Of a stretch of DNA of 64,000 nt, positions 51,634-63,072 are shown piece by piece; the first letter of the stretch is position 1; each line of letters starts with the position of its first letter. Under the pieces are notes generated by a model. It searched no databases, was not told where the DNA came from, and saw only the letters and a program-made list of their open reading frames with translations. The stretch comes from Nitrosomonas aestuarii (GTDB lineage Bacteria; Pseudomonadota; Gammaproteobacteria; Burkholderiales; Nitrosomonadaceae), in NCBI RefSeq assembly GCF_003046585.1, contig NZ_QAAE01000007.1, positions 62,001-126,000 of the forward strand, written 5' to 3'. The translations under genes and the position numbers were made by a program.

Positions 51634-54027
51634 TCAATACGGCCACACCCAGTTACGCATTTCCGGTTTATCAATACCGTGCTCGTGGGCATAGTTGCGA
51701 CAATCGATTTGCATGTCTCGCAGTTTATCTTTGACGTGAGCACCGGCCACCTGTAAATGAGGTACGCGATCGATGGCATCTATTGCAAGTTTGAATCGGT
51801 CGATTTCATTTTCGATGGCGAGTTCCAGAGGTGTGTTGATATTTCCTCTCTCCTTGTAACCGCGCACGTGGAGATTACGATGATTAGTACGCCGATAAGC
51901 AAGACGATGAATCAGCCAGGGATAACCATGGAAGTTAAAAATGATGGGTTTGTTGATGGTAAACAAACTATCAAAGTCACGATCGGAAAGCCCGTGGGGA
52001 TGTTCACCGGCTGACACCATACGGAACAGATCGACTACATTGATAAAACGGATTTTTAGTTCGGGGAAGTATTCGCGCAGCAAGGCGGTTGCCGCCAGCG
52101 CTTCCAGTGTTGGAATGTCTCCGCATCCGACCATGACCAGATCCGGTTCATTGCCCTGGTCGTTACTCGCCCACTCCCAAATCCCCAAGCCCTTGGTGCA
52201 ATGTTTGATGGCTGCATCCATATCCAGGTATTGCAGGTGCATTTGTTTGTCACAAACAATCACGTTTATGTCATTGTAACTGCGCAGACAATGATCTGCG
52301 GTTGAAAGCAAACAGTTGACATCCGGCGGCAAATAAATGCGTGTAACCTCCGGGTTCTTGTTAACCACAACATCCAGAAAGCCCGGATCCTGGTGAGTAA
52401 AGCCGTTGTGATCCTGTCGCCATACTGTAGAAGTGATAAGCATGTTGATGGAGGCGATTGGCGCACGCCAGGGTAAATGCTCGCAGATGGCCAGCCACTT
52501 GGCATGCTGGTTATACATGGAGTCGATGACGTGAACGAAGGCTTCATAAGTTGCGAAGAATCCGTGGCGTCCGGTGAGCACATAACCTTCATACCAGCCT
52601 TCCAGTGTATGTTCCGAAAGCATTTCCATCACGCGCCCATCAGGACTGAGTTCACCACCGTCTTTGTCTTCAGGCAAGTAGTCCGCCAACCATAATTTTT
52701 TACTCACCTCGTAAATTGCATCGAGTTTATTGGAGGAGTTCTCATCAGGGCCAAACACACGGAAGTTATCCATATTCCGGAACATCACATCGCGCAACAT
52801 GACGCCTAAAGGTTTGGTATTCATCGCTCTTTCAACGGCGGGTTTCGACAGCTTCTGGGCATAGTTGCGGAAGTCCGGCATGCGCAAATTCCGGCGTAAC
52901 AGTCCACCGTTAGCGTGGGGATTAGCACTCATACGACGCGTACCCTGGGGCGCCATTGCTTTTAGTTCAGGGATAAGACGACCGTTGACATCAAACAACT
53001 CTTCCGGCCGATAACTGCGCATCCATTGTTCCAGTAGTGTTAGATGGGCCGGATTATCGTGCATACCGGACAAGGGCACCTGATGCGCTCGCCAGGAACC
53101 TTCGACCTTATGCCCGCCAACTTCCTTGGGGCCGGTCCAGCCTTTGGGTGAACGCAGTACGATCATTGGCCAACGGGCGCGTGTGATCGCACCTCCATTA
53201 CGTGCCTTCACCTGGATTTCCCGAATCTCAAGTATACAGCGCTCCATGGTTTCAGCCATGAGCTGATGCATGGTTTCCGGATCATCACCCTCGACGAAAT
53301 GCGGAATCCAACCATAGCCATGGAACAGGTTATCCAGTTCTTCGTGGGAGATACGCGATAAAAGACTCGGGTTATTAATTTTGTAACCGTTCAGGTGCAA
53401 AATGGGCAATACGGCGCCGTCGTGTCCCGGGTGCAGGAATTTGTTGGAGTGCCAGGCCGTGGCTAGCGGGCCAGTCTCGGCTTCGCCATCACCCACCGCT
53501 ACGGTAACAATCAGGTCCGGATTATCGAAAGCAGCCCCAAAGGCATGTGAAATACTGTAACCAAGCTCGCCACCTTCATGGATCGAGCCCGGCGTTTCCG
53601 GCGTGCAGTGGCTGCCAATGCCGCCGGGAAAAGAAAACTGTTTAAAGAAACGTTTCAGGCCTTCCTCATCCTCGCTCTTGTCTGGATAAACTTCAGAGTA
53701 GGTACCTTCCAGATATACCGGCGCGAGCACACCGGGTGCACCGTGACCGGGACCTGCGAGAAAAATAGCGTTGAGGCCATATTTATTGATCAAGCGATTC
53801 ATGTGCACATACATAAACGCCAGCCCCGGACTTGCACCCCAGTGACCGAGCAGGCGCACCTTGATATGTTCAGCCTGTAGCGGCTCGCGCAGTAAAGGAT
53901 TGTCCCGCAGATAAATCATGCCAACGGCGAGGTAGTTGCAAGCACGCCAGTAAGCGTCGAGCTTGCGCAGTTCGTCGGCAGAAAGTGAACTGGCTTGAAC
54001 GGCGGATTTTTTATTACTTGTTGTCAT
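51634..54027 (-). CDS. xfp: Phosphoketolase
   Basis: TPP enzyme that splits xylulose 5-phosphate (and often fructose 6-phosphate) with phosphate to acetyl phosphate plus glyceraldehyde 3-phosphate (or erythrose 4-phosphate). At 797 residues from the ATG at 54027 (GAGGTG ribosome site; another ATG 9 bp upstream) it is full length. Signatures include [53 protein letters not shown] and [17 protein letters not shown]. It is 220 bp downstream of ackA on the same strand, so acetyl phosphate can feed acetate kinase. Confidence 0.96.
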
Positions 54028-54256
54028 TTGCAGCACCTCAGGGTTTGAAGTTTATCTGGATTCCTGCGCTAACAATTAACCATCTGCAAAGCCATAGTGT
54101 ATCGGCTGACTGTGGGCTCATCAGTTCAGGTTAACACTGATCTATATTGTTCTGAATGGCACACATTTAGGAAAGCACTATTCTATTCTGGTTCTGTTAA
54201 TACTATTTAATAATAACGATTGGCTGTTTACTATTGATTACAATGCACCAACCAGT

Positions 54257-55441
54257 TTAACACTCAATACATTCAACTGTCTGTCGCGCAATTTCCAGTT
54301 CTTCGTTTGTTCGCACCACCAGCAGCTTAATGTTTGCATTCGAAGACTGAATCTCACAAACATCGCCTTGGGCCCGGACATTTCTGTTTTCGTCTATGAC
54401 GATACCGAGTGCTTCAAGACCGTGGCAACTTAACTGGCGAACACGCGGTGCATTCTCGCCTATGCCTGCGGTAAATATGATGCCATCGATGCGACCTAGC
54501 GCAGCGAGATAGGCACCGATATATTTCTTAATGCGGTAGCAATACATATCTATAGCAAGTTGTGCAGCATTGTCGCCAGCATCGGCCATGCGTAACACCT
54601 CACGCATATCGTTCTCACCGCAAATACCTTTGAGCCCACTGTCATGGTTATAAAGTGATTCGATGTCTGCGCTACTTTGTCCGGTAACCCGCTGCAAATA
54701 AAACGCAACGGCTGGATCAATGTCGCCGCAGCGGGTACCCATCATCAGGCCTTCCAGCGGTGTCATTCCCATGGAAGTATCGATGCAACGTCCACCATGA
54801 ATTGCGGCAGCGCTTGCGCCGTTACCGAGATGCAGACTGATGAGATTGAGCGTTTCCAGCGGTTTTTGCAAATGCAGTGCAGCCTGTCTGGCGACATAAG
54901 TATGAGAAGTGCCGTGAAATCCATAGCGGCGCACGCCATGTTTTGAATACAGCGAGTTGGGCAAGGCATATCGATAAGCATGTGCCGGCATGCCTTGGTG
55001 AAAAGCCGTATCAAAAACTGCAACCTGTTGAATATCTGGAAACAACTCAAGACAAACCTCGATACCGGCCAGGTTGGCCGGATTATGCAAAGGCGCAAGC
55101 TCACTCACACCACGTAGAATTTCAATAACCTGTGCATCAATACGTATCGGTGCACTGAATGCTTCGCCGGCATGCACCACGCGATGACCAATGGCTGTAA
55201 GCTGCATCGTATCGACCAGTAACTCGGTAATCGCCACCAGGCCTGCACGGTGATTTCGAATGTGGGCCATGTGAACATGTACTTCCATCTTGCCTTCCGC
55301 ATTGCGTCGACGGTGTGTCAAACGGCTTTCAACTTCATCAATACGTTCCACCTGTCCGACAGCCAGCAACATAGCACTTGGCATCTTCAGCAATTGATAC
55401 TTGATGGACGAGCTACCTGAATTCAGAACCAGTATGTTCAT
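54257..55441 (-). CDS. ackA: Acetate kinase
   Basis: Converts acetyl phosphate plus ADP to acetate plus ATP (and reverse). The 394-residue protein has the ASKHA-fold signature VLNSGSSSIKYQ at the N terminus, HRVVHAGE near residue 85, HGTSHTYV, and later GMTPLEGLMMGTRCGDIDP. It lies upstream of phosphoketolase in transcript order, forming a phosphoketolase-acetate shunt that yields ATP without pta. The pair is unlinked to other carbohydrate genes here. Confidence 0.97.
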   Translation of the reverse strand: MNILVLNSGSSSIKYQLLKMPSAMLLAVGQVERIDEVESRLTHRRRNAEGKMEVHVHMAHIRNHRAGLVAITELLVDTMQLTAIGHRVVHAGEAFSAPIRIDAQVIEILRGVSELAPLHNPANLAGIEVCLELFPDIQQVAVFDTAFHQGMPAHAYRYALPNSLYSKHGVRRYGFHGTSHTYVARQAALHLQKPLETLNLISLHLGNGASAAAIHGGRCIDTSMGMTPLEGLMMGTRCGDIDPAVAFYLQRVTGQSSADIESLYNHDSGLKGICGENDMREVLRMADAGDNAAQLAIDMYCYRIKKYIGAYLAALGRIDGIIFTAGIGENAPRVRQLSCHGLEALGIVIDENRNVRAQGDVCEIQSSNANIKLLVVRTNEELEIARQTVECIEC

Positions 55442-55725: not shown

Positions 55726-58700
55726 TTAACTATCAATTGAGTATTCCAGTGCGTAAACACGTCTTGATTCATTGGTTTCTTTGAACTCAAATGTCCCTGC
55801 GTCTTCAAATTTCCAAGATTTAACAATATCAATCTGGAAAGACTCATCAATGAGGATAACTTTATTTATGTTTCGAGCAATTTCACCTAACCGGATAGCT
55901 TGATTTACCGCATTACCTAAAATTGTGTAATCCATTTTTATTGACGAACCAATATTGCCTTCTGCTACCATTCCAGAAGCCAAACCAAATCCACAATTCA
56001 TTACTTTATCACTCGGATATAATTTTGCTTGCTCTTTGAACTTGTTAAATGCATCGACGCATGAAGCTATCGCAGAATCTATTTGATGTATTTCAAAATG
56101 AGCGACGAAACACCCACCAGAATACTTTATTACCTGACCGCCATATTCAATGCACGCTATCGAACAAATTTCCAGAAAGTTATTCACTGCACAAACGAGT
56201 TCCTCGTCAGAGAATTGGTTCCGTAGCGCTACAAAGTCGGTAAGACTTCCTGAAACGACTATTTTTCTCGCGCTCTTTATTGGAATAGTCAGTGGATCAA
56301 TCCCTTCCATTAGGAATTTAAGCAAGGCCGGTTGGGTGTATCGCCCCATGGCATTATGTGACTGAGCAATGTTTTGTAACATCAAACTGATGGCCAGCAG
56401 TATGAGATCATTACTTTCATTGAGAGTTACTGCCTTCATGTTCCAGTCTGAAAAAAGTCTCTCTTCACAACCGGTTTCTGCGCTGAGTATGGTCACATCA
56501 CGATGCCGTGGATCGCGACTTATTTTCTCTATCAGCACATTGATAGTTGTTTCCTCGCCTTCCAAAATCTGAAAAAAATAATCTCCTACTCCAATTAGGA
56601 TGCCAGTTACATCTATCTTCTGGTTGTTCAAACTTGCTTTACGTCCTATCTCAAGAATTCCTTTCTGATCAAGCGGTACACTTAGTTTACTAACGTAGGT
56701 TAGTCGCTTCAGCCCAAGCGAGGTATCTGTTAACGAAGTATCAGGTTGAAAATCCCTTAGATTCCGGATTGCCTTACTCATCAACCAACCACTTTTTATC
56801 AATGCACCAAGATCTTCTTGCGAAACATTTTTTAATTCACAATCGGTAAGGCACTGGACTGTTTCTGTGCGTTTATTTTGATGTATCGGCAATATTTCAC
56901 CGAAATGGTCTCCGGGACCCAGTTCTCTTATTTTTATGCCGTTCTGGATTACTTTTAAACGTCCGGATTCAACTACATAAGCCATTTTAGCGGTGTCACC
57001 TTGACTGAAAATTTCATCGCCTGCTTTAAAATGTGATTTTTCCAAACTAGATGAAGAAGTTTGTGCCAAGACTGCAATATCGCTACGAAATGCCAGCACT
57101 AAAAACCAATCAATAATAATGCGCAGATTCCTTTCCAATCCAGGTACTGAGAGCAGATTTATAAAACGCGAAATAAACCAGGCTAGTATTCCGGTAAAAA
57201 TTAACCCACTCACGCGACACAAGGAAAATTGACGCATGTTGTATGGCTGGACAAAATGTCGTTGTTGCTTGAATGGGCGCCGGGAAAATCCTTGTGAATT
57301 TGCCCAGGCATTAAAGCCGGTACTTTGCCCCAAATTGACCTGATCACTGGCAAAAACAAATTGAGGAGTTGTCGCATTTTGATGCGACTCTGCCACCCAA
57401 ATGTTGTTAAAAGATTGCAAACGCAATTCGTTGTCAATTACAAAAGGCCAGTTCAAACTACCATGTTCAACAAAGCGAATGGTTGGATACTCGAAAGAGG
57501 CGTTTATTAGCAGACCGAATGCCTGGGGGTCTCCTTTTTCAAAAACCAGTCCTTTTTGAGTAAGCCCAGAAATTTTTTCTTCCAGGTGTTCGATAACACC
57601 GGCCTTTTTCAAACATTGAGATCGCTTTGAACTTATTTGATGCTCAAATTTGGTTCTGCTTTTATCGTATTCATTAAAAAGATGAACCTGCCACCCTGAG
57701 TTTTGTAAAGCTGGGTACGATGGTTCTGCCGATTGCAGTATTTGACTGACTTCGACAGCGATTGCGGACGCAATTTCACTCGAACCAATGATAGCGAAAG
57801 TAAGTAAACGCTTTTTCTCGTCAGCATCTTTAACCATTTCTGCTTCTTCAACCAGATCAAGAACACGCTGCCTGATGCGAAGCGCGTCAGCAATCGAGTC
57901 GATTGGGCATGCATGATCCATCATGCCTGGAATCTTCGTAATATGAGACGATGGTGTCAATGCCAATATCAAGCTATCGTACTTTAGCTCTATAGTTTCA
58001 TTGTTTTTTCGTTTTGCGATTACTTTTTGTTCTTTCTCGTTAATAGCATCCAAGTGTGCAACAACGACATTTGTTCGTTGAACAATACGACGAAATGGAT
58101 TTACCACATTGCCCGGTTGTACCGTACCGCCGATAACTTCGGGTAAGAACGGTGCGAACAAAAAGTTTCCCTGCTCATGAAGCAGTGTAATACGGACATT
58201 GGAGTACTGGCCGATGAGTTTCTCTATTTTAACAGCAGCTTGCAGGGCAGCAAGGCCTCCGCCAATGATGACAATGTCAGCGGCTTTGTCTCTTGGCACA
58301 GGTCGACGCAAATGACCGGCAGAATTTATAAAGCATGACAAAACAACCCCGTAAAAAAGAATATGTGCGGTAGGTGTTTCCGGAAGTAATAAAGCAAAAA
58401 TAGAAAAGGCACTAATTAAAAAAATCGACAGAGGACGTAACAATATCCCAGCAATTAGCAAAACGCCTGCGCTTACTTCAACAAGCGCCATTAGCAATGT
58501 AAAGGCTTCAGGGTGGATCGACAGAATGGGTAACTGATAAGTTTCGATTATGCCCATTGAAAGATTGGGCTGCAGCAGCTTATAGAATACCCCCAGGTAC
58601 AATATCGTAGTGCCGGTCAGAATGCGCATTATGGCCTGAGCACGTTGTCGGGGTTGGTTAGCCAGAAAAGATTGTATACCACGAAAGGCAGCCGGGATCG

Positions 58701-59355
58701 GCAGTGGTAAAAAATGCCTACCCGCACCTTGTAAAACGAGAAAAATACTTGCGCCAATTATGGCGCCTAAATAGGGAAAAATAGCCTCGCCAAATAAATA
58801 CCAGCCTAAAAGACTTAACAATATCAGCAGGAAAGAAAAAAATCTGACATAAACGCCAAACAAAATGGTTAGGCCTAATATAATTTCAGCCCACCTTATC
58901 CAGGCCCATTCAGAACCTAGCTGATTTAGTTCAAGATCAGGCGCTAAAAAAGTAGGTGAGGTAAATGCTTCTACTCCAAAACGTGGTTCCGCCCCGAAAG
59001 CCGAAGATAATAAAATCCAGCCCACACACACGCGCAATATACGCGGCACATGATCGCCATAAGAAGACAGTCTTGCCTGCAAATCAGGAAAAAGTTCACG
59101 TGCTCCTGTGAAACCAAGCCATACCCAGCCGATGATAAAAGCTAAAAAAGCCGAAATCATCAACACATTAAGAGAAGATACTTGAGTAAAAATGTCTGGT
59201 AGCTTTTGAGCATTCCAGTAATCAATTTGCTCGGGCGTTAAAATCCAGGTTTCATGCGCCAAAACAGCACTGGAAAAAACAAGTAATCCAGAAAAACCGA
59301 AAAGTAAAAAGGCTACATACCAAACAAACCGGATAGAAAAATGTGTATTTATCAT
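55726..59355 (-). CDS. DoxX-like membrane / NDH-2-like / cyclic-nucleotide-binding / BLUF / cyclase-like fusion
   Basis: One 1209-residue open frame without interruption. Residues 1-350: about ten membrane helices of DoxX/SURF4 type. 357-690: pyridine-nucleotide-disulfide (NDH-2-like) flavoprotein, with FAD loop IVIIGGGLAA intact except the last Gly (A370), but the NADH loop reads IIGSSEIASA and the usual GD near 656 is ES. 765-860: cyclic-nucleotide-binding domain (LGPGDHFGEILP). 880-975: BLUF blue-light sensor with Y887, N911, Q929 and W971/M973 at the spacing known from AppA. 1030-1205: class III cyclase-like domain with K1077, D1142, N1151 and R1155 kept, but both metal aspartates replaced (S1037, G1081). 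It may be a light sensor with pseudo-enzyme outputs. Confidence 0.8.
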   Translation of the reverse strand: MINTHFSIRFVWYVAFLLFGFSGLLVFSSAVLAHETWILTPEQIDYWNAQKLPDIFTQVSSLNVLMISAFLAFIIGWVWLGFTGARELFPDLQARLSSYGDHVPRILRVCVGWILLSSAFGAEPRFGVEAFTSPTFLAPDLELNQLGSEWAWIRWAEIILGLTILFGVYVRFFSFLLILLSLLGWYLFGEAIFPYLGAIIGASIFLVLQGAGRHFLPLPIPAAFRGIQSFLANQPRQRAQAIMRILTGTTILYLGVFYKLLQPNLSMGIIETYQLPILSIHPEAFTLLMALVEVSAGVLLIAGILLRPLSIFLISAFSIFALLLPETPTAHILFYGVVLSCFINSAGHLRRPVPRDKAADIVIIGGGLAALQAAVKIEKLIGQYSNVRITLLHEQGNFLFAPFLPEVIGGTVQPGNVVNPFRRIVQRTNVVVAHLDAINEKEQKVIAKRKNNETIELKYDSLILALTPSSHITKIPGMMDHACPIDSIADALRIRQRVLDLVEEAEMVKDADEKKRLLTFAIIGSSEIASAIAVEVSQILQSAEPSYPALQNSGWQVHLFNEYDKSRTKFEHQISSKRSQCLKKAGVIEHLEEKISGLTQKGLVFEKGDPQAFGLLINASFEYPTIRFVEHGSLNWPFVIDNELRLQSFNNIWVAESHQNATTPQFVFASDQVNLGQSTGFNAWANSQGFSRRPFKQQRHFVQPYNMRQFSLCRVSGLIFTGILAWFISRFINLLSVPGLERNLRIIIDWFLVLAFRSDIAVLAQTSSSSLEKSHFKAGDEIFSQGDTAKMAYVVESGRLKVIQNGIKIRELGPGDHFGEILPIHQNKRTETVQCLTDCELKNVSQEDLGALIKSGWLMSKAIRNLRDFQPDTSLTDTSLGLKRLTYVSKLSVPLDQKGILEIGRKASLNNQKIDVTGILIGVGDYFFQILEGEETTINVLIEKISRDPRHRDVTILSAETGCEERLFSDWNMKAVTLNESNDLILLAISLMLQNIAQSHNAMGRYTQPALLKFLMEGIDPLTIPIKSARKIVVSGSLTDFVALRNQFSDEELVCAVNNFLEICSIACIEYGGQVIKYSGGCFVAHFEIHQIDSAIASCVDAFNKFKEQAKLYPSDKVMNCGFGLASGMVAEGNIGSSIKMDYTILGNAVNQAIRLGEIARNINKVILIDESFQIDIVKSWKFEDAGTFEFKETNESRRVYALEYSIDS

Positions 59356-60084: not shown

Positions 60085-63072
60085 TCAATAGCTGTTTAAT
60101 AACCCCTCCATCAATTGCAGGACTCTTTTTTTGACCACTCTCCCATAATGCCTGGTGCCTCCCTGCCGGTAACCAACATAAAATAATGACCCGGTGCCTG
60201 AACTTTTGGTGCTTTCTTTTTTTAGAAGAGTTTTTCCCAGCCCTAGATCTAAAAAATTCCTCTTATTTTTCTGAAAAATGTAAGTTGCCAGACAGGCAAT
60301 TTCATAATCTGTCTTAAGAAATAAATCATCCCATTCTTTGTTAGAAGACCGGGTGGCTATTTCGTCCAGTCCTTTTTCTTTGTATTTGCTTTTAAAACTC
60401 TTCACCAACAAATTTGAACTACTATAACCACCGTTTATAATATGGTTAATCAACCATTTATACGTGCCTCTGAATGTAATTTGAGTGAGACCCCTTCCTC
60501 TGAATTTGCAGAAGTCCATTTCCGCAATGATTCCACCCGAACTTACTGATTTGGGGTGCGCCAAGGGGTAATTGCTTTTCCCCTTTAATTTCCATTTATT
60601 GCTATAGGGTTTGGCGGGAACATTTCCTTTGTGGCCATGCGCCGCTAAAAAGACCGGGTTGTGAAGCAGATTATACGCGATGCCCTGATTTCCGTTTGCC
60701 TTGGAATTGTATCTGTACAAATAGGGCAAATTACCGAGCTCTGTTCCAACTGTAAATTTTCCAGCATGCTCATTGATAATAATCGAAGTCAGGGCAAAAA
60801 ATTGAAAAAAGTTGATCTTTGTTTTACTGTATTGGCTCCCATTAAACAGCAGGGGTATATTGTCAAAGACTTTAATAAAATTAGGTTCCTGGCCTTTAGG
60901 AATATTTTTGGGCGTTCTTCCTTTTTTTCCGGTATAAGTAGGGTCATAAGGCATGCTTCCAAAAAAACCACTATTGCCTATTTTTTCTCTAAACCATTGG
61001 CAAAATTCATAACCCGTTGTTTTTTTGAAAAAGGAATTGATGTCACTGGCATCTGAGAATCGGGTGCTATGAAAATTATTTAAAAAATTTTCAAAAAGGC
61101 TGTCTTCTTCGGATGTATTCCAATCCATTTTTTTATAAGAAACCTTAGAAGCAGAACTTGCGGGTTTGCTTTTTGAAGTACCAATACCCAATATCGCCTT
61201 CATTTTATTCCAGGTATTCGTACCGATTTTGCCATCAGGGGTCAACCCTTTACCGTCCTGCCAGTCTGCGACCGTCTGGGCGAATGCGCCCTCGTCGGGA
61301 GAGTAATTGAGTTTTAATATTTGACTGACAATATCATCGTAGTGTTTCTGCCAACCCAAAGTCTTCATTTTGACCCGGTTGTATTCGATAGCGCTATTTA
61401 ATTTGCTGGCCGAAAGCTGTTCTTCTTCCATATGGGCCCCATCATTCAAAACATGGGGGCTCTCTCCGATTTCACCTTGAGAGTCTTTGCACTGATAGTT
61501 GGAAATCGATGGAACAGACACCTTTTTTAAAATAGACCGGTATTTTTCTAAAACACAAAAGCGGACATGAAGATGTTTATTGTGCCCAGACCACGCTGAA
61601 ACTTTTTTAAATTCTTTTGCCAGAACGCTGTCGGTGCAGCCAATGATCTTAATGCCGAGGATGGGATTGCTTAAAATCACTTTGATGAAGTTTCGCAGTA
61701 TATTCTGCTTTTCAAGGGTGTAGGATTTGCCCGCAAGTGTATTGATCTTTGCCCCGTTTTTTAGTAATTGCAGGTCTGCATCTAAACCAATTTGATGTGA
61801 TTTGTGGTACGAAGGCTTACCATTTTTGGTTCCATTTCTTAATGGCCCGCCGCCTTTTTTACTGATATCCCTTATTTTAAGTACTATATCCGGATTGCTT
61901 TTATGCCACTGATTTCCAATCCATTCAATGGCCTCGATGGCCTCAGCAATTCCATAAGCCCTTGAAGATGCATTTACGATATATTTGCTGCCCACTGAGA
62001 CAGGCATCTTGAAACTTATCAAATCCTTTGCCCTGGTAGAGGAGGGGGGCTTTGTTGTACTTTTTGAAGAACCGGTTCCTAGAATCGGCTTCATTTTTTT
62101 CCAGGTACCGGGTCCGATTTTGCCATCGGGAGTCAAACCTTTACTGTCTTGCCAGTCCGCCACCTTTTGGGCGAATTCCCCTTCGTCCGGAGAGTAATTG
62201 AGTTTGAGTATATTGCTGACAATCTCATCAAAGTGTTCTTGCCAGCCCAAAGTCTTCATCTTGACCCGGTTATATTCAATGGCGCTATTTAACTGGCTGG
62301 CTGAAAGTGTTTCTTCCTCCAGATACGTTTCATTTTTAGAATACGCGCTATCCGGATAGGACTCGAATTCCTGATCACTTTCATTCCACAATGCGTCTTC
62401 ATATTCTTCTAATCCGCTTTGTGTTTCGTCATCATATAAGCCTTCCGTTTCAACCCCTGATTCATCTTGTGTGTCGTCATCATCATGGAAGCCTTCGCCT
62501 GCAAGACTGGATTCATCTTCCTGGTCACTTTCATCCCACAGCTCGTCTTCATAATCATCCAATTCGTTTTGGATTTCATCATCATATAAGCCGTCGGTCT
62601 CTATGCCCAGTTCATCTTCCCGATCGCTTACTTTCCACAATTCGTCTTCGTCATCGTTTAATTCGTATTGTGTTTCATCATTATGCAGGTCTTCAGACTC
62701 GATACCGATTTCACCTGTTTCTTCGATTTCATCTTCTACCGCTTCAAAGTTAAAATACGAAAAATCATTTTCAATTCTCGATTCATTTTCTATATCTTCA
62801 TATAAGTCGTCACTTTCAATACCACTATCTTCCAGACCTTCACTTTCCCAGTCAGTTTCCTCAAAGCTTTCTACCTCGCGCTCACTATTTTCGTTTGATT
62901 CGTCTAAAGTAGATTCTTCAAAAACAGCGCCTGAAAAATTTTCTAAAAATGAACTCTCAAAATTCGGACGAGAACTAACTGCTTCTTTCGAAATCAGTTT
63001 GCTTTCAATCAGTTCATCATCCAAAAATTCAGAATAAATTTCAAGATGGCTGGATTTATTAGATTTAGACAT
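60085..63072 (-). CDS. Acidic multidomain murein hydrolase (PG-binding / MepA-like M74 / PG-binding / lysozyme-like)
   Basis: A 995-residue protein with no signal peptide. Residues 1-245 are extremely acidic, with three roughly 32-residue repeats (starting at 123, 156, 206; each ...LYDDE...YEDxLWxESDQE). Residues 255-333 and 551-633 are near-identical peptidoglycan-binding domains. Residues 345-520 match MepA-type M74 endopeptidase (SHQIGLDADL with H426 and D431; HLHV with H500 and H502). Residues 650-995 resemble a GH19/lysozyme-like domain (FRGRGLTQITFRGTYKW). The lack of a signal peptide plus acidic N terminus suggests export by a special route, such as a contractile injection particle; that is inference. 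Confidence 0.7.
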   Translation of the reverse strand: MSKSNKSSHLEIYSEFLDDELIESKLISKEAVSSRPNFESSFLENFSGAVFEESTLDESNENSEREVESFEETDWESEGLEDSGIESDDLYEDIENESRIENDFSYFNFEAVEDEIEETGEIGIESEDLHNDETQYELNDDEDELWKVSDREDELGIETDGLYDDEIQNELDDYEDELWDESDQEDESSLAGEGFHDDDDTQDESGVETEGLYDDETQSGLEEYEDALWNESDQEFESYPDSAYSKNETYLEEETLSASQLNSAIEYNRVKMKTLGWQEHFDEIVSNILKLNYSPDEGEFAQKVADWQDSKGLTPDGKIGPGTWKKMKPILGTGSSKSTTKPPSSTRAKDLISFKMPVSVGSKYIVNASSRAYGIAEAIEAIEWIGNQWHKSNPDIVLKIRDISKKGGGPLRNGTKNGKPSYHKSHQIGLDADLQLLKNGAKINTLAGKSYTLEKQNILRNFIKVILSNPILGIKIIGCTDSVLAKEFKKVSAWSGHNKHLHVRFCVLEKYRSILKKVSVPSISNYQCKDSQGEIGESPHVLNDGAHMEEEQLSASKLNSAIEYNRVKMKTLGWQKHYDDIVSQILKLNYSPDEGAFAQTVADWQDGKGLTPDGKIGTNTWNKMKAILGIGTSKSKPASSASKVSYKKMDWNTSEEDSLFENFLNNFHSTRFSDASDINSFFKKTTGYEFCQWFREKIGNSGFFGSMPYDPTYTGKKGRTPKNIPKGQEPNFIKVFDNIPLLFNGSQYSKTKINFFQFFALTSIIINEHAGKFTVGTELGNLPYLYRYNSKANGNQGIAYNLLHNPVFLAAHGHKGNVPAKPYSNKWKLKGKSNYPLAHPKSVSSGGIIAEMDFCKFRGRGLTQITFRGTYKWLINHIINGGYSSSNLLVKSFKSKYKEKGLDEIATRSSNKEWDDLFLKTDYEIACLATYIFQKNKRNFLDLGLGKTLLKKESTKSSGTGSLFYVGYRQGGTRHYGRVVKKRVLQLMEGLLNSY

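Follow-up and report, generated by a model that had tools for sequence, protein, structure and literature searches.

Why would a bacterium string together a membrane module, a flavoprotein, a cyclic-nucleotide-binding (CNB) domain, a blue-light sensor of the BLUF type and a cyclase-like domain, and what could such a protein do? The question is raised by one gene in a 64,000-nucleotide stretch of DNA from Nitrosomonas aestuarii, a member of an ammonia-oxidising genus (assembly GCF_003046585.1, contig NZ_QAAE01000007.1, positions 62,001 to 126,000; this whole stretch is hereafter the window). The gene lies on the reverse strand at positions 55726-59355, and it is one open frame of 1209 amino acids (aa) plus stop, without internal stop. 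What is new here is that the key residues of the BLUF and CNB domains look intact, while the catalytic residues of the cyclase and of the flavoprotein appear to be lost. Since key residues survive in the two sensors and in the membrane module but not in the two enzymes between them, the protein is read, by elimination and tentatively, as a membrane-bound regulator that would sense light and cyclic nucleotides and be built on two pseudo-enzymes. It would then be neither a light-driven cyclase nor an ordinary NADH dehydrogenase.

Five modules in one reading frame

The presence of five modules within a single protein, as proposed in the first-pass annotation, is borne out by searches of Pfam and of the Protein Data Bank (PDB). 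In Pfam, the DoxX family gave two stretches, the best of them at residues 241-316 (28.6 bits against a cut-off of 23.6), and it is followed along the chain by Pyr_redox_2 (E 7.3e-19), cNMP_binding (E 6.5e-18; 64.9 bits, cut-off 27.5) and BLUF (E 1.9e-24; 86 bits, cut-off 25). Guanylate_cyc, at residues 1038-1201, scored just above its threshold (E 1.2e-4; 22.2 bits, cut-off 21.9). The PDB search matched the flavoprotein part with NDH-2 structures (best E 5.8e-14), the CNB part with PKG and PKA, and residues 881-1204 with the photoactivated cyclase OaPAC, with which they are co-linear across the entire BLUF-cyclase length (E 1.8e-68). Because this last match runs over the full length, the low Pfam score of the cyclase part reflects divergence and not absence.

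Is such a long chain real? Matches to the gene occur in 5 of 85 Nitrosomonas genomes, host included. The gene is full length in the host genome and in Nitrosomonas sp. HTM.4, where it has no stop and where the flavoprotein, CNB, BLUF and cyclase domains also exceed the Pfam cut-offs. The copy of Nitrosomonas sp. UBA6494 comprises residues 1-1136 and a C-terminal piece, on either side of an assembly gap; those of two other genomes (G824 and G826) are fragments that stop at contig ends; and a copy outside these five genomes, that of Nitrosomonadaceae Ww601, covers approximately the first 770 residues, up to the contig end. Over the parts compared, the host protein is 84-89% identical to the HTM.4, UBA6494 and Ww601 copies and 78-82% identical to the G824 and G826 fragments. 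A scan of the GTDB species genomes returned 88 pattern matches, which led to three relatives (HTM.4, UBA6494 and Ww601); it relied on two short peptide patterns and may therefore have overlooked full fusions in more distant sequences.

A stop or frameshift between the modules, which would have pointed to separate genes, was looked for and is present in no orthologue seen. An assembly or gene-call artefact is ruled out, because the chain recurs across independent assemblies. As for the conservation of the architecture in homologues, the point that the first-pass annotation wished to see checked, it holds for other Nitrosomonas, whereas in more distant bacteria the modules are encoded separately or joined in smaller sets. 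The architecture is no artefact, and within the collections searched only a few Nitrosomonas carry it.

The light sensor and the cyclase-like domain

The Tyr, Asn, Gln, Trp and Met residues of the BLUF domain are retained wherever a copy can be read at the position concerned. The spacing of Y887, N911 and Q929, already singled out in the first-pass annotation, is correct, as these residues align with Y6, N30 and Q48 of OaPAC. The key residues of the sensor thus look intact, and blue-light sensing is predicted.

The cyclase-like domain tells a different story. In OaPAC, the metal/ATP site includes Asp156, Asp200, Asp270, Asn273 and Glu279, according to the available part of the description (PMC11533990), and the corresponding residues here are Ser1037, Gly1081, Asn1148, Asn1151 and Gly1157. 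The two metal aspartates, Asp156 and Asp200, are absent in 5/5 readable copies, host included, with Ser in place of the first and Gly or Glu in place of the second; Asp270 and Glu279 (OaPAC numbering) are absent in 4/4, again including the host. All five metal/substrate residues are present in 3/3 stand-alone BLUF-cyclases. With both metal aspartates, Asp270 and Glu279 missing, a cyclase homodimer should not make cAMP, and a functional photoactivated cyclase is ruled out by the lost catalytic residues. Overall similarity tells less: of the positions that OaPAC and three BLUF-cyclases share without exception, the BLUF domain and its connector keep 35/57 and the cyclase 38/75, so that the two parts differ more by their catalytic residues and by selection.

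Might the domain still serve as one half of a cyclase, gated by light? By comparison with C2-like cyclases, it would keep the base and transition-state residues and pair with a cyclase that supplies the metal aspartates. K1077, T1144, N1151 and R1155 are indeed kept in the host, G824 and G826 copies, Lys1077 and Thr1144 being presumably the base-binding positions, and Asn1148 stands where OaPAC has Asp. Moreover, the host genome encodes another cyclase of class III, the 528-aa C18, which retains the residues for metal and substrate. Yet R1155 is kept in only 3/4 copies, as HTM.4 has Gln there and also Ile at 1148, and the half-site therefore varies within the family. Besides, the host genome has one BLUF match only, hence no photoactivated-cyclase partner. 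A light-gated half-cyclase is, on balance, very unlikely.

BLUF domains are found in 13/85 Nitrosomonas genomes. A different combination was noticed in Nitrosomonas G836, which encodes a 402-aa BLUF-EAL protein (L095 577-1785).

The flavoprotein and the nucleotide-binding domain

The sequence motifs of NDH-2 have been defined from 1762 members of the family, and the portion of that survey at hand reports that the first glycine motif reads GxGxxA in 9% of them, that the Glu of GxGxxGxE occurs in 97%, and that GD is strictly conserved (PMC5299459). In the present protein, YD and, in its GxGxxA form, the first motif for FAD are kept in 4/4 copies; in the host these are GGGLAA at residues 365-370 and YD at 459-460. 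Three other motifs are missing from all four copies. The NADH motif GxGxxGxE has become GSSEIASA (residues 524-531) in the host and GSGENASA in the three others; the GD motif of the FAD site reads ES at residues 656-657 in the host; and the quinone motif AQxAxQ, or any of its listed variants, is absent; for the APxAxQ variant, PQFVFASDQ and the corresponding segments of the other copies were inspected by eye.

The same motifs were followed in eight relatives from outside the genus, namely four NDH-2-CNB proteins (two of which, G465 and G614, are near-identical) and four NDH-2s. GxGxxGxE is present in 8/8, GD is present in 8/8, with that of G592 read from the alignment, and an AQxAxR-type motif is present in 7/8. 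The flavoprotein part keeps 22/49 of the positions that are invariant among these relatives. Further along the chain, the C-terminal membrane-associating segment of NDH-2 aligns; it has no Pfam NDH2_C match up to E 1, and the second stretch of the PDB match is very weak.

A canonical NDH-2 is ruled out by these losses. With GxGxxGxE, GD and AQxAxQ gone, a direct link from NADH to quinone is unlikely, and the tie to the quinone pool that the first-pass annotation suggested from the flavoprotein and membrane parts is not borne out in that form. Of the light, redox and cyclic-nucleotide inputs that it would combine, the first and the last have sensors with intact key residues (BLUF and CNB), and a redox input is possible only via a non-canonical route. 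In the CNB domain, Gly819-Glu820 and Arg829, which we take to be the phosphate-cassette residues, align with PKG and are kept in 3/3 readable copies.

The membrane module and its putative partner

How well is the membrane module preserved? Nine aligned sequences, this protein among them, share 15 invariant residues, including H34, W37, R171, K259, E293, R307 and H331. Five free-standing relatives have 22 invariant columns among them; this protein agrees at 16 and differs at six, each time by a Leu/Ala/Gly swap, and the charged residues invariant in these relatives are all kept. Against the three nearest relatives, 51/70 positions are kept, and the losses by column include His126 to Phe.

His34 deserves attention. 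It is preceded by a small residue in 9/9 sequences (Ala in eight and Ser in one), where a signal-like leader ends, and His would thus be the first residue of the mature protein. Residues 1-33 may accordingly be a signal peptide, and the N-terminal His34 might be a copper ligand, by analogy with cases such as CopC, a copper-binding protein with an N-terminal His.

A blue-copper gene is found directly downstream in 4/4 of the other carriers that are readable there. Its product is a cupredoxin-like protein of 146-155 aa, with His, Cys, His and Met in blue-copper order; the Pfam Cupredoxin_1 test was made on the UBA6494 protein (one carrier).

Selection on the gene

The ratio of nonsynonymous to synonymous change (omega) was estimated module by module between the host gene and that of HTM.4 (NG86, with bootstrap intervals). 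The lowest value is that of the BLUF domain with its connector, 0.022 (0.007-0.051). It is followed by the membrane core, 0.059 (0.035-0.096), from which the leader 1-33 is excluded; with the leader, whose residues vary freely, the value is 0.122. The flavoprotein has 0.097 (0.073-0.132), the CNB domain 0.161 (0.060-0.336) and the cyclase 0.185 (0.111-0.303), the last reaching 0.27 against UBA6494. The gene is under purifying selection, strictest at the light sensor and weakest at the cyclase.

These values also bear on a less favourable explanation, in which a former enzyme chain is in early decay and losing its function. Two degenerate catalytic modules, a patchy presence (5/85 genomes) and the high omega of the cyclase are what it would leave behind. 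A decaying gene fits poorly with frames that are intact in all readable copies, with omega far below 1 in every module (bootstrap upper bounds 0.05-0.34) and with the retention of the sensor residues, and we hold this explanation to be scarcely credible.

Partial architectures outside the genus

At E 1e-20, the gene has matches in 9/369 genomes of a class sample and in 7/398 of a phylum sample, host included in both; among plasmid records there are matches in 11/72,556, none of which spans 80% of the protein. The full five-module chain was found in none of the class, phylum and order matches outside Nitrosomonas, which hold shorter pieces only. These are the free-standing membrane protein (G192, G512, G526), NDH-2 alone (G307, G302, G206), NDH-2-CNB proteins of 544-576 aa (G221, G592, G465, G614; both domains by Pfam in 4/4) and BLUF-cyclases (G237, G092, G344). 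With a profile of the membrane module, 4/369 genomes of the class sample match, including the host, and the other three matches are in frames of 352-424 aa.

Two other genomes from the same order, although as weaker matches (L060 6241-8553; L004), encode a DoxX-type part fused to NDH-2, with 770 aa in G051 and a 780-aa frame in G058; both fusions have GxGxxGxE and GD. In G433 (L058 7637-9409), a DoxX-like gene (167 aa) is immediately followed by an NDH-2 gene, in frame and with one TAG separating the two. Every neighbouring pair of modules except CNB-BLUF thus has a precedent outside the genus.

The fusions lend weight to the view that the protein is a redox enzyme after all. Its flavoprotein would bind FAD and move electrons, with a donor other than NADH, into or from the membrane module, under the control of light and nucleotide. 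DoxX-NDH-2 fusions with GxGxxGxE and GD give a precedent for a partnership between membrane module and flavoprotein. The first FAD motif and YD persist in 4/4 copies, the former in the GxGxxA version already known from 9% of NDH-2s (PMC5299459, available part), a GxGxxA also remains at the second site in 3/4, and the flavoprotein omega is 0.097. On the other side stand the losses: GD and AQxAxQ are gone in 4/4 copies, the equivalent of Glu172 is Ala in 4/4, and the host copy has also lost the second glycine. This redox enzyme is considered unlikely.

How could the protein work?

If the protein is a regulator, as we tentatively prefer, the following sequence of events can be imagined: (i) blue light would alter the dimer geometry of the pseudo-cyclase through the connector, as in OaPAC and bPAC; (ii) cAMP or cGMP, made by the separate, intact-looking cyclase of the host, would bind the CNB domain; (iii) the changes caused by light and nucleotide would be relayed to the membrane module by the NDH-2-like scaffold, itself attached to the membrane; and (iv) the periplasmic face of this module, to which the N-terminal His34 and the nearby blue-copper gene of the other carriers draw attention, would handle copper or electrons. 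A more specific version, in which light and cyclic nucleotide would govern the exchange of copper or electrons between the membrane module and the periplasmic blue-copper protein, and so control copper or redox supply, is rather improbable as it stands.

Does the signal perhaps run the other way? The membrane module, sensing periplasmic copper or redox state, could be an input together with light and nucleotide, and the BLUF/pseudo-cyclase end could bind a cytoplasmic partner. Dead catalytic domains can turn into interaction platforms, the BLUF output of AppA and BlsA is protein binding, and no part of the chain is more constrained than the BLUF end. Nevertheless, the cyclase part, the presumed docking surface, is the least constrained (omega 0.185), and the sole recurring neighbour, the copper protein, has a leader (by eye) and would be periplasmic. 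The chances of this reverse flow are small.

Several points weigh against the regulator. The output role of its membrane module is inferred, and the module could be an input rather than an effector. The contrast between kept and lost parts fades when all invariant positions are counted (35/57, 38/75, 22/49 and 16/22 for BLUF with connector, cyclase, flavoprotein and membrane module), in comparison sets that differ in depth. DoxX fused to an intact-looking NDH-2 within the same order would favour a redox role, as does the GxGxxA that persists at the second dinucleotide site in 3/4 copies, and the relaxed selection on the cyclase would look the same in early decay. In G824 and G826 the column preceding the D200 position holds an Asp, so that a shifted ligand is possible there; this loop varies among copies. 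Binding of cyclic nucleotides by the CNB domain is a prediction read from its residues. The copper gene is not beside the host copy, and the host genome has only a 47%-identical relative elsewhere. Finally, the AlphaFold models are unusable, with pLDDT 38.3 for the membrane part (four sequences) and 33.0 for the flavoprotein-CNB part (three sequences).

Features and neighbours of the gene

The features are collected in Table 1. A scan for promoters and terminators gave 16 and 7 sites, versus 11.4 and 5.1 in shuffles, and hence no signal.

Table 1. Features of the five-module gene in the window, with the basis of each assignment
Feature	Positions	Strand	Basis
Whole gene, 1209 aa plus stop	55726..59355	-	Frame and orthologues
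Residues 1-33, hydrophobic signal-peptide-like N-terminus ending ...VLA before His34	59257..59355	-	Hydropathy peak 14-32; alignment
Residues 34-355, DoxX-like membrane module with multiple transmembrane segments	58291..59256	-	Pfam, hydropathy, relatives
Residues 360-603, Pyr_redox_2, NDH-2-like putative pseudo-oxidoreductase	57547..58278	-	Pfam, PDB, motif alignment
Residues 652-673, expected site of NDH-2 GD and AQxAxQ; reads IWVAES, PQFVFASDQ	57337..57402	-	Alignment
Residues 700-765, aligned with NDH-2 C-terminal membrane-associating helices	57061..57258	-	Alignment
Residues 775-854, cyclic-nucleotide-binding domain, G819-E820 and R829 retained	56794..57033	-	Pfam, PDB
Residues 882-974, BLUF blue-light sensor, Y887 N911 Q929 W971 M973	56434..56712	-	Pfam, PDB, alignment
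Residues 1026-1204, class III cyclase-like putative pseudo-domain (S1037, G1081, N1148, G1157)	55744..56280	-	PDB, alignment

Downstream of the host copy lie, side by side, what we take to be an acetate-kinase-like and a phosphoketolase-like gene (51634-55441, reverse strand). Upstream, also on the reverse strand, positions 60085-63072 encode a 995-aa protein with an acidic, repetitive N-terminus and peptidoglycan-binding and Peptidase_M74 domains; two similar peptidoglycan-binding segments are visible in its translation.

Beside the HTM.4 copy there is a short PAS/LOV-like gene (L063 5405-5854), whose NCRFLQ is presumably a LOV-like motif, and near it a gene that we assume to be photolyase-like. 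The PAS/LOV-like gene was dropped as a sign of a light cluster, with matches in 70/85 Nitrosomonas genomes.

As for the free-standing membrane proteins, the gene next after them encodes a small GHAH-motif protein in G512, G526 and Phaeobacter. At two loci (L109 4517-7438 and L049 7405-10319), a relative of the membrane module has a haloperoxidase-type gene on one side and a gene for a small GHAHxH protein on the other; the haloperoxidase-type gene is annotated as vanadium-dependent in Phaeobacter and falls just below the Pfam cut-off in G526.

Comparison with known systems

OaPAC from Oscillatoria and bPAC from Beggiatoa have the same co-linear arrangement of BLUF, connector and class III cyclase as residues 881-1204, and the BLUF key residues are shared. 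They differ in that four of their five metal/substrate ligands are changed here and that three further modules stand in front; their PDB chains are of ~350-390 residues, versus 1209 here. AppA, BlsA and other BLUF receptors with protein binding as their output are, as here, BLUF proteins without an active enzyme, and they are not known to have such a membrane module or pseudo-cyclase.

In the NDH-2-CNB proteins, a flavoprotein is followed by a CNB domain and the two align lengthwise with the present protein. Unlike it, they keep the NADH and GD motifs, which are lost here, where the membrane and BLUF-cyclase parts flank the two domains. The G051 and G058 fusions share an N-terminal DoxX-type membrane part joined to NDH-2. 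Unlike the present protein they have GxGxxGxE and GD; their membrane part has no clear BLAST similarity to the one described here, and no AHxxW start was seen; and CNB, BLUF and cyclase are absent from G051, the one of the two that was scanned.

The best likeness to the membrane module is that of free-standing DoxX-like proteins, with identities of 38% for G192 (374 aa) and 29% for G512 and G526. These three and the Phaeobacter plasmid proteins (353 aa, hypothetical) have the AHxxW-type start and share K, E, R and H residues. They are encoded by separate genes, and in G512, G526 and Phaeobacter the neighbour is the GHAH-motif protein instead of the blue-copper one.

Concluding remarks

Light and nitrification have met before in the literature. 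Inhibition of nitrifiers by light has long been observed, as stated in the part of PMC9797979 available, and blue light inhibits nitrite oxidisers, not ammonia oxidisers, through BLUF photoreceptors, according to the accessible text of PMC12943234. In the searches made, and within the text that they returned, no report of a BLUF photoreceptor in Nitrosomonas was noticed; the matches in the retrieved text of PMC3514609 and PMC7564152 are place names. One paper contains both BLUF and DoxX, and in its figure legends, the part seen, DoxX is named among neighbouring genes (PMC9020721).

What does this protein add? In it, a photoactivated-cyclase chain appears to have given up catalysis and turned into a sensor, alongside an apparently dead second enzyme and a membrane module. 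If its output is found, it would show how a BLUF signal reaches the membrane. And if the link to the copper protein is true, light would directly control the supply of copper or redox equivalents in a bacterium whose ammonia oxidation is light-sensitive and copper-dependent.

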